Source: an uncultured Ectothiorhodospiraceae bacterium (lineage in GTDB: Bacteria > Pseudomonadota > Gammaproteobacteria > UBA6429 > Thiohalophilaceae). From it: a DNA stretch of 37,319 bases. The position numbers and the translations under genes are program-made. Location: positions 1 to 37,319 of the forward strand of contig CAMYOL010000052.1 of assembly GCA_947260005.1 (NCBI GenBank), in the 5' to 3' direction. Positions 19,431 to 37,043 of the stretch are shown here, piece by piece. The first letter of the stretch is position 1. Every line of letters begins with the position of its first letter. Below the pieces are notes generated by a model. It was not told the DNA's origin, made no database searches, and worked only from the letters and a program-made list of their open reading frames with translations.

Positions 19431-19692
19431 TGTCATCCTAACCGGAGCGAAGCGTAGGGAATGACTGTAGCGAAGCGGAAGGAATGACCGGAGTGTAACG
19501 TAGGGAATCCTGCATGGAACACGTAGTGGTACGAAGCAGGGACTGCGTGATGCGCGTCGCGCTTCAAGGCAGTGACTGCATGAAACGCTAAGCGGTTCAA
19601 AGCATGTGGAGCGAAGCGAAGGATCTTGTGGGGTAAAGCGTCATGCGATACGAAAAAGTTAAGATTCTTCGCTTCGCTCAGAATGACACAGT
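19431..19692. repeat. Dispersed hairpin-rich repeat cluster A
   Basis: About 260 bases built of related modules of the GCGAAGCG type. One is a 56-bp element at 19486-19541 (from GACCGGAGTG to AAGCAGGG), the same length as the elements inside the tRNA remnant at 36767-36907. Further partial hairpins follow (core TGCATGAAACGC...GCGGTTCAAAGCA at about 19577-19604), then GAGCGAAGCGAAGGATCTT at 19619-19637 and its inverse near 19670. It shares long near-identical stretches with cluster B at 23773. Confidence 0.85.
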
Positions 19693-23772: not shown

Positions 23773-24240
23773 TTGTCATCCTAACCGGAGCGCAGCGTAG
23801 GAAATGACCGGAGTGTAACGTAGGGAATCCTGCATGGAACACGTAGTGGTGCGAAGCAGGGACTGCACGAAACGCGAAGCGATTTAAAGCATGTAGAGCG
23901 AAGTGAAGGATCTTGCGTAGCGATAAATCTTGTGATGCGTCAGATAATACAAATCGAAACATTAAGATTCTTCGCTGCGCTCCACATGCTTTGCACCACT
24001 GCGCGCTTCATGCAATCTTGGCCCCGAAGCGCTACGCGCATCACACCGTATTCCTTACGCACCGCTCCGGTCTACTAGTTTGAATCCCTCCGGGATTTGT
24101 CTAGCATTCCCTACGCATTGCTCCGGTCATCTTGACACATTATCTAACTGTCATCCTGAGCGAAGCGAAGGATCTTAGTATTTTGTCTGTATGATCCGTC
24201 ACGTCTAAGATCCTTCGCTTCGCTCAGGATGACAGATACA
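23773..24240. repeat. Dispersed hairpin-rich repeat cluster B
   Basis: About 470 bases of the same repeat family as cluster A, in both orientations. It begins with a close copy of cluster A's start, including a 56-bp element at 23806-23861. It continues through inverted modules (for example CATTCCCTACGCATTGCTCC at 24109-24128) and ends in a perfect 30-bp inverted repeat. No gene is credible inside; the open frames here are by-products of the repeat. Confidence 0.85.
24148..24235. repeat. Perfect 30-bp inverted repeat
   Basis: The arms 24148-24177 and 24206-24235 are exact reverse complements with a 28-base loop. Each arm contains the widespread TCATCCTGAGCGAAGCGAAG unit. The transcript would form a long stable hairpin. 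A short direct repeat (ATGACAGATACAT) follows at 24229-24241 and 24245-24257. Confidence 0.9.
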
Positions 24241-36631: not shown

Positions 36632-36704
36632 GCCGACATAGCACAATTGGTAGTGCAACTGATTTGTAATCAGTAGGTTCGCGGTTCGAGTCCGTGTGTC
36701 GGCA
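36632..36704 (+). tRNA. tRNA-Thr (TGT anticodon)
   Basis: Acceptor GCCGACA pairs with TGTCGGC. The anticodon stem ACTGA/TCAGT closes loop TTTGTAA with anticodon TGT (decodes ACA), and the T-arm loop is GGTTCGAGTCC-like. Discriminator A at 36704. The genome continues CCG, so CCA is not encoded and must be added after transcription. A TACAAT at 36616-36621 could be its -10 box. A terminator hairpin follows directly. Confidence 0.95.
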
Positions 36705-36706
36705 CC

Positions 36707-36728
36707 GCAGCTATTAGCTGCCCTTTTT
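36707..36728 (+). terminator. Terminator after tRNA-Thr
   Basis: GCAGC-TATTA-GCTGC (36707-36721) followed by CCTTTTT. It lacks the extra G/C pairs that its sister at 36924 has. Confidence 0.75.
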
Positions 36729-36766
36729 ATTTAGACCAGCATAATCGCTATCCGGTGATTTGTAAT

Positions 36767-36822
36767 GACCGTAGCGCAGCGTAGGGAATCCTGCATGAAG
36801 CGCGAAGCGGTTCAAAGCAGGG
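36767..36822 (+). mobile_element. 56-bp hairpin element, insert 1 (in the anticodon arm copy)
   Basis: It starts GACCGTAGCGCAGCG, ends AAAGCAGGG, and sits between T and C of the tRNA sequence with no target duplication. Outer stem CCTGC/GCAGG, inner stem GAAGCGC/GCGGTTC with one mismatch. It differs from insert 2 at two positions. Confidence 0.82.
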
Positions 36823-36851
36823 CAGTAGGTTCGCGGTTCGAGTCCGTGTGT

Positions 36852-36907
36852 GACCGTAGCGCAGCGTAGGGAATCCTGCATGAAGCGCGTAGCGCTTCAA
36901 AGCAGGG
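36852..36907 (+). mobile_element. 56-bp hairpin element, insert 2 (in the acceptor-stem copy)
   Basis: Same 56 bp as insert 1 except two bases. It also sits between T and C with no target duplication. Outer stem CCTGC (36875-36879)/GCAGG (36902-36906); perfect inner stem GAAGCGC (36882-36888)/GCGCTTC (36892-36898). Confidence 0.82.
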
Positions 36908-36923
36908 CGGCACCATATCTGAA

Positions 36924-36947
36924 GGGCAGCTATTAGCTGCCCTTTTT
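36924..36947 (+). terminator. Terminator after the interrupted tRNA copy
   Basis: GGGCAGC (36924-36930), loop TATTA, GCTGCCC (36936-36942), T5. Same hairpin as at 36707, with two more G/C pairs. Confidence 0.85.
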
Positions 36948-36973
36948 AGTTAGACCAGCATAATTATTTACAC

Positions 36974-37043
36974 TGATTTGTAATGCGAAACTAGTGAAAG
37001 GAACACTGAATGAACCTCGAAGCGGTTCAAAGCCGCCGGTTCA
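36974..37043 (+). pseudogene. Second, more decayed tRNA-Thr 3' copy with one diverged insert
   Basis: TGATTTGTAAT (36974-36984) is followed by a 52-base diverged relative of the 56-bp element (36985-37036, sharing CGAAGCGGTTCAAAGC). Then CGGTTCA (37037-37043) stands where CGGCACCA is expected, and a sequence like that after the first copy leads into a third terminator. The T-arm piece is missing. Confidence 0.7.

Follow-up and report, generated by a model that had tools for sequence, protein, structure and literature searches.

A 56-bp element made up of two hairpins is inserted twice in a partial copy of a tRNA-Thr gene within the window, the 37,319-nt stretch of DNA analysed here. The element belongs to a dispersed family that displays a conserved fold, a fixed 5' end, insertion directly after T and repeated use of the same sites, and removal of its copies restores tRNA sequence exactly. 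With a probability of about one half, we interpret it as a non-autonomous, mobile two-hairpin sequence that enters after T and mostly before C, with no bases duplicated or lost, and that would move as a folded single strand handled by an HUH (Y1)-like nuclease.

Structure of the tRNA-Thr locus

The end of the window carries, in order, a birA-like gene, a type III pantothenate kinase-like gene, an unknown gene, tRNA-Thr(TGT) and the start of a tRNA-Tyr gene, the last being identified by comparison with relatives. An Rfam search of the window matched tRNA alone and gave no match to a group II intron or a retron. The remnant that follows the intact tRNA-Thr gene contains the two inserts (Table 1), and the original prediction of two 56-bp sequences in one orientation, differing at two bases and each lying between T and C, was confirmed in the sequence. 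Both differences fall in the apical hairpin; together with the flanking T and C, the copies form a 58-nt direct repeat of 97% identity. Joining the flanks without the inserts yields tRNA nucleotides 29-39, 40-68 and 69-75 in direct continuation, with zero bases gained or lost, such that the tRNA-Thr arms measure 11 + 29 nt around the first insert and 29 + 7 nt around the second. The claim that excision restores the 3' part of the tRNA exactly therefore stands, with the refinement that the remnant encodes CCA and the intact gene CC followed by G. The two-insert picture can also be extended, as a third, decayed unit comprising a tRNA fragment and an element remnant follows the second insert.

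The window copies are closer to each other than to the copy at the same site in the related genomes G003 or G001, and the pair was therefore made by a local second insertion or by conversion. A complete encoded CCA is absent from the intact tRNA-Thr (window 36700-36710) and tRNA-Ser(GCT) (locus L013, 990-1000), and present in their counterparts in the relative G002 and in the adjoining remnants; the 3' ends of the two intact genes seem to have been trimmed by small deletions.

Table 1. Positions of the tRNA-Thr gene, its remnants and the element copies in the window.
Feature	Position	Strand	Remarks
Intact tRNA-Thr(TGT) gene	36632..36706	+	ARAGORN and Rfam (36632-36706/36704); G next, final A of CCA unencoded
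Terminator-like hairpin and flank	36707..36745	+	Second copy at 36926-36964 (97%)
tRNA-Thr nt 29-39 remnant, short arm left of first insert	36756..36766	+	
Double-hairpin element, copy 1, between tRNA nt 39 (T) and 40 (C)	36767..36822	+	
tRNA-Thr nt 40-68 remnant, identical to intact gene	36823..36851	+	Exact repeat of 36671-36699 (29 nt)
Double-hairpin element, copy 2, between tRNA nt 68 (T) and 69 (C)	36852..36907	+	
tRNA-Thr 3' end remnant, CCA encoded	36908..36915	+	
Third tRNA-Thr fragment, nt 27-39	36972..36984	+	
Decayed third element copy	36989..37037	+	Covariance model E 0.0011
Element copy nested inside another copy	19486..19541	+	Model match and flanks
Element copy nested inside another copy	23806..23861	+	Model match and flanks
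Two element copies head to tail, array starting after GTCAAGAT	24017..24128	-	Model match and flanks

Fold of the element

The element comprises two hairpins of ~23 nt and ~33 nt. In an alignment of 32 copies from this genome and its relatives, hairpin 1 extends over nucleotides 3-19 and is followed by RAAT and by the longer hairpin 2 at nucleotides 23-56. Bases are paired in 89.8% of 606 cells of the alignment, a measure that is favoured by the structure having been designated after folding copies of the same family. Nine of the 19 pairs changed on both sides, in 44 cells, a level of both-side change that was reached by 0 of 500 shuffles, while controls with slid partners gave at most five pairs and ten cells. 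The number of further pair types was less striking, being reached by 32 of the 500 shuffles. Hairpin 1 is the weaker of the two, with 83% of cells paired and one pair displaying a both-side change. The predicted hairpin nature of the inserts is thus backed, as a two-hairpin fold, by compensatory changes in the 32 copies.

G-U pairs occupy 41 of the 606 cells and correspond to A-C mismatches on the opposite strand, which suggests that folding takes place in the strand as written. A G(T/G)AG motif (GKAG) is located at positions 5-8, within hairpin 1. The 5' end of the element is fixed; the 3' end varies with the second stem and has no fixed sequence, and by eye its two ends show no inverted-repeat relationship.

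Distribution of the family

In this genome, 47 stretches were matched by a 301-base DNA query and 83 matches were obtained with a covariance model (E ≤ 0.001); an iterated profile, run over the stretches collected to that point, gave 95. With 47 and 83 matches, the window inserts are more than a chance pair, and the search for other copies that had been proposed with the original prediction uncovered a dispersed family, here and in relatives. Of 40 genomes belonging to the order, 24 contained matches to the covariance model; a sample of 274 genomes from the class, screened at E ≤ 1e-5 and with stricter filtering, yielded 9 genomes with matches. The viral_contigs set gave 0 matches to the exact element pattern, a weak test owing to the strictness of the pattern, and plasmids gave no match in a distant DNA search, equally weak with its 56-base query. 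The site at tRNA-Thr nt 39 is occupied in two genera of the family and is therefore either old or hit repeatedly.

Insertion sites and nesting

The survey of insertion sites started from 163 model matches over 82 stretches, of which 120 full-length matches were used and reduced to 108 clusters; those left out were partial, weak, located in duplicate stretches or overlooked. The 108 sites include inherited, nested and duplicated copies, and are thus not independent, and counts over them do not give the number of events. Immediately before the element stands T in 96 of the 108 flank pairs (C 9, G 2, A 1), against 28% T in the surrounding DNA; immediately after it, C occurs 50 times, A 33, G 23 and T 2. 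Classification by rule placed 42 sites as nested, 26 in other palindromes, 12 in tRNA sequence and 28 elsewhere.

Nested copies are concentrated at two fixed positions (37 of 42), with 25 at position 23 (RAAT^MCTGC) and 12 at position 46 (GGTT^CAAAGC), and two copies that the rule assigned as nested at position 26 (L126, L024) lie in reality in GTCATCCT palindromes. Head-to-tail copies without a spacer were also found, which is the expected outcome of repeated insertion at the same T. Among the other palindromes, GTCATYCT...AGGATCTT carries 18 copies in one orientation and 2 in the opposite one, and GAGCYTGT^CGAA carries 6 copies, all in the relative G020. Many dispersed GTCATYCTGA...GAAGRATCTT palindromes with differing cores (L022, L024, L040, L043 and other loci of this genome) were noted, and it is mainly these that contain the nested element arrays; a text search of the literature found no mention of this outer palindrome.

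Approximately 20 uninterrupted copies of the GTCATYCT...AGGATCTT palindrome lie in the same stretches, and paralogous empty sites therefore exist. An orthologous empty locus is provided by tRNA-Gln, which is plain in this genome (L165); in G002 (L129) the element sits at TGGGGTGT^CGCC, and the start of the tRNA and its flank are repeated. The empty sites that had been sought were accordingly found in this genome and in relatives, and precise insertion without target duplication holds at the level of single bases in the window and in relatives. It had also been stated that a duplication of flanking bases would speak against this picture: no short duplication exists at the ends of the element, although on a larger scale the element is surrounded by a duplication of the tRNA end and some of its flank.

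Partial tRNA genes as hosts

The flanks of each copy (8 + 8 nt) were joined and compared blindly with 61 tRNA sequences, using 1500 random 16-mers as a control. At most one mismatch in 16 was observed at 10 of the 108 sites and for 6 of the 1500 random 16-mers, and both insertion sites in the tRNA-Thr remnant of the window display 0 mismatches in 16. The blind tRNA matches total 12, ten of them with at most one mismatch, while 26 of the 1500 random 16-mers have three or fewer. The matches lie at tRNA-Thr nt 39 (this genome, G001, G003 and G019), tRNA-Thr nt 68 (this genome and G002), tRNA-Gln nt 8 (G001) and tRNA-Ser-GCT nt 79 (this genome and G002), and on the reverse strand of tRNA-Arg-CCG (G001) and tRNA-Leu-TAA (this genome and G001). 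Further sites were added by eye for Gln (L129, L132, L150), Ser (L135), Arg (the second unit of L120, and L175) and Leu (L122, L123). The hosts are thus partial copies of five tRNA genes, with the element in sense orientation in Thr, Ser and Gln and antisense in Leu and Arg. In G001, 8 of the 10 matches were listed, and every one of these 8 belongs to one of four tRNA loci (Thr 2, Gln 1, Arg 2, Leu 3). In G074, which belongs to another family and has a single match, the element occupies the same site of a tRNA-Leu(TAA) remnant on the reverse strand, beside the intact gene. Copies adjoin the tRNA-Ser-GGA gene with none inside it, and the Gln site of G019 has one extra C between element and tRNA.

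An intact gene is present in the same stretch for most tRNA loci, with none in L122, L123 and L175. At tRNA-Thr, a partial copy was found in 5 of 5 loci with the element and in 0 of 15 element-free loci of other genomes. The element need not cause the partial copies, because element-free ones of tRNA-Pro, tRNA-His and tRNA-Ser-TGA occur in this genome; the Pro and Ser-TGA copies contain other hairpin-rich inserts. The reverse-strand, tRNA-Arg-like remnant that carries the element in L175 (contig C49, 31842) lies ~7 kb from tRNA-Arg(CCG) (L164; C49, 38780), next to which the start of a candidate integrase gene was recognised by eye; an island possibly lies between the tRNA and the remnant.

Search for a cognate enzyme

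A Y1 transposase or reverse transcriptase whose ends match the element had been proposed as a check, and none could be linked to it. This genome contains three Y1 transposase genes, two on contig C24 (L044) and one on contig C59 (L045), and no element match lies near them in the 7 kb (C24) and 3 kb (C59) examined, the C59 gene starting at the contig end with its upstream side outside that sequence. The C24 genes were inspected as a source of the element and rejected: they sit among GGGGTCAG repeats with no element nearby. At L044 (959-4833) the two genes lie amid repeated GGGGTCAGA motifs, an arrangement of the type flanked by terminal inverted repeats (TIR). Y1 genes with GGGGWSAS terminal repeats, termed TIRYT, are described by Di Nocera and colleagues (PMC3733652), and by eye the genes here fit this type.

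Presence of the element was also compared with gene content, in genomes that are mostly drafts and in which the absence of a gene is soft evidence; reverse transcriptase, IS110 and Y2 genes occurred inconsistently. Y1 genes do not clearly track the element, being detected in 18 of the 24 genomes that carry it and in 9 of the 16 that lack it (p 0.30), and none was detected in G001 (10 copies of the element) or G020 (8 copies); all five element-bearing genomes of other, more distant families contain Y1, a set with no element-free control. Reverse transcriptase (PF00078) was found in 8 of 24 genomes with and 4 of 16 without the element, and in none of G001, G003, G019 and G020. An IS110-type transposase domain occurs in 6 of the 8 element-bearing genomes searched, with none in G003 (70% complete) or G020 (93% complete, 8 copies), and a Y2 transposase in 1 of the 8. 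Genes between neighbouring copies (C7, C16) encode Mla transport proteins, NnrS and a HipA-like protein, and no DNA-moving function was found among them. In G029 only, a group II intron with a reverse transcriptase lies ~650 bp from an element copy, near tmRNA (L192, 1581-3330).

Proposed mechanism of insertion

The absence of duplication, insertion after T, the folded strand, the recurrent sites and the head-to-tail arrays together liken the family to single-strand transposition. In our preferred reading, the moving form would be a folded single-stranded DNA, cut and joined in trans by a nuclease encoded by the host or by a transposon, either of the HUH (Y1) type or similar in action, and tRNA insertions would be seen only where a partial tandem copy keeps the intact gene alive. 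Part of the mechanism originally advanced is retained, as insertion is precise and the inserts have a hairpin nature; the single-strand or retro-type route that accompanied it gained no Y1 transposase or reverse transcriptase tied to the element.

Some observations would fit a history with no transposition at all, in which template switching, tandem duplication and gene conversion act between hairpin-rich repeats and tRNA remnants are byproducts of repair. The window copies are near-identical and less like the same-site copy of G003, five loci (L069, L073, L121, L127, L162) have inverted fragments of their own tRNA close to the remnants, and element-free partial tRNA copies exist in this genome. 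We nevertheless regard such a history as unlikely, as the same start and a few target sites recur in tRNA genes, at GTCATYCT^GAG, at GAGCYTGT^CGAA (G020) and at nested positions, and the precise entry into the different palindrome of G020 is left unexplained by recombination between repeats. An RNA route, in which folded RNA is joined into the target and copied back by reverse transcriptase, was suggested for the hairpin elements of Allomyces mitochondria because flanking duplications are lacking, according to the paper on sponge elements (PMC2800124). Flanking duplication is absent here too, and G-U pairs are common in the fold, but the antisense insertions in Leu and Arg beside sense ones in Thr, Ser and Gln are not expected from entry into tRNA transcripts, and the distribution of PF00078, including its absence from four element-bearing genomes, also makes this route quite unlikely.

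Duplicated tRNA ends are the usual trace of island integration, and together with the candidate phage-integrase-like start after tRNA-Arg in L164 they would suit remnants that are attachment sites of integrative elements or phages, entered later by the repeats; yet the units lie 100-260 bp apart with no island genes between them and the element also occupies many non-tRNA palindromes, which renders this origin very unlikely. Recombinases of the IS110/IS1111 type also enter palindromes without duplication, and the frequency of their domain among the element-bearing genomes searched would agree with insertion by such an enzyme, although its absence from G003 and G020 leaves this proposal highly improbable. 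Should the preferred reading hold, a family with tRNA genes as landing sites would join the very small mobile DNAs, and its clean paralogous and orthologous empty sites would help in working out the chemistry of insertion. It may also account for the repeated tRNA ends long known at E. coli tyrV, and partial copies beside tRNA genes would then not always be traces of integrated islands.

Layout of the remnants and E. coli tyrV/rttR

At each tRNA insertion, the remnant retains two arms of the gene, one short and one longer, together with some of the flank, for example 5 + 46 nt for Ser in G002 and 8 + 123 nt (12 mismatches) for Arg in G001, in a comparison of 15 sites with anchors placed by eye that left out the Leu sites of this genome and G074. 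In E. coli K-12 tyrV, a 19-nt tRNA 3' end recurs every 178 bp, and the partial copies contain a structured insert between GGTTCGA and AATCC, with a short arm of 8 nt and long arms of 25-42 nt. The same RtT-type layout, with tandem split partial tRNA ends accompanying an intact tRNA, was found in the window, L119, L127 and L162. The Rfam RtT model (RF00391) gave 29.0 and 24.0 bits against a gathering threshold of 45 (E 0.025 and 0.43), in L127 and L162 and not in the window. The two systems thus share repeated partial tRNA ends, each split by a structured insert. In contrast, the tyrV/rttR insert is another structured sequence and splits the T loop, while the 56-bp element of the window lies at nt 39 and 68, outside the T loop. 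The resemblance is accordingly one of layout and does not prove a relationship.

A further structured insert, ~70 nt or longer and comprising several hairpins, interrupts partial tRNA ends in their T loop in L162 (tRNA-Pro), L169 (tRNA-Ser-TGA), L119 (tRNA-Gln), L127 (tRNA-Ser-GCT) and L069 (tRNA-Thr); the E. coli RtT insert is similar in design.

It is conceivable, if doubtful, that hairpin elements of this kind enter tRNA genes at favoured sites of folded single-stranded DNA, that repair rebuilds the intact neighbour and that tyrV/rttR is a fossil left by another element. Repair after a hit would in that case leave the insert flanked by one short arm of 3-11 nt and one long arm.

Comparison with known systems

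A literature search, for which most subscription journals were outside reach, found no report of this element, nor of the insertion of one like it into bacterial tRNA genes. The element has neither the target duplication at its ends nor the terminal inverted repeats that define MITEs. IS200/IS605 transposition proceeds without target duplication, on one side of a short target and with subterminal hairpins, and the absence of duplication and the subterminal hairpins are shared by the present element, which has T on its left at 96 of 108 sites. However, its target is little more than T^C, and no transposase with matching ends was found; its right end varies with the stem, unlike the cleavage sites known for IS200/IS605.

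GTAG-tagged REP and REPIN sequences resemble the element in being short palindromic repeats with many copies, arrays and G-T pairs in their stems, and in the placement of some families inside other palindromes, as described by Di Nocera and colleagues (PMC3733652). They are, in contrast, single palindromes of 20-40 bp that end on one side in an unpaired GTAG, compared with two unlike hairpins in 56 bp here; the GKAG of the element lies inside hairpin 1, with no unpaired end tag, and the element enters tRNA copies. RAYT genes of REPs are flanked by the repeat, but no such flanking by the element was found at the three Y1 genes of L044 and L045. Rickettsia palindromic elements are described in the same paper (PMC3733652) as palindromic inserts in genes that are not lost; they lie in frame within protein genes, whereas the present element is found in tRNA remnants and palindromes. 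The hairpin elements of Allomyces and sponge mitochondria, as presented in the paper on sponge double-hairpin elements (PMC2800124), possess two hairpins in some cases, apparent mobility and, in Allomyces, no flanking duplication. The present element is bacterial, and its sequence and targets are, as far as known, unrelated to theirs; what it shares with the mitochondrial double-hairpin elements, namely two hairpins, apparent mobility and the lack of flanking duplication, is a likeness of anatomy only.
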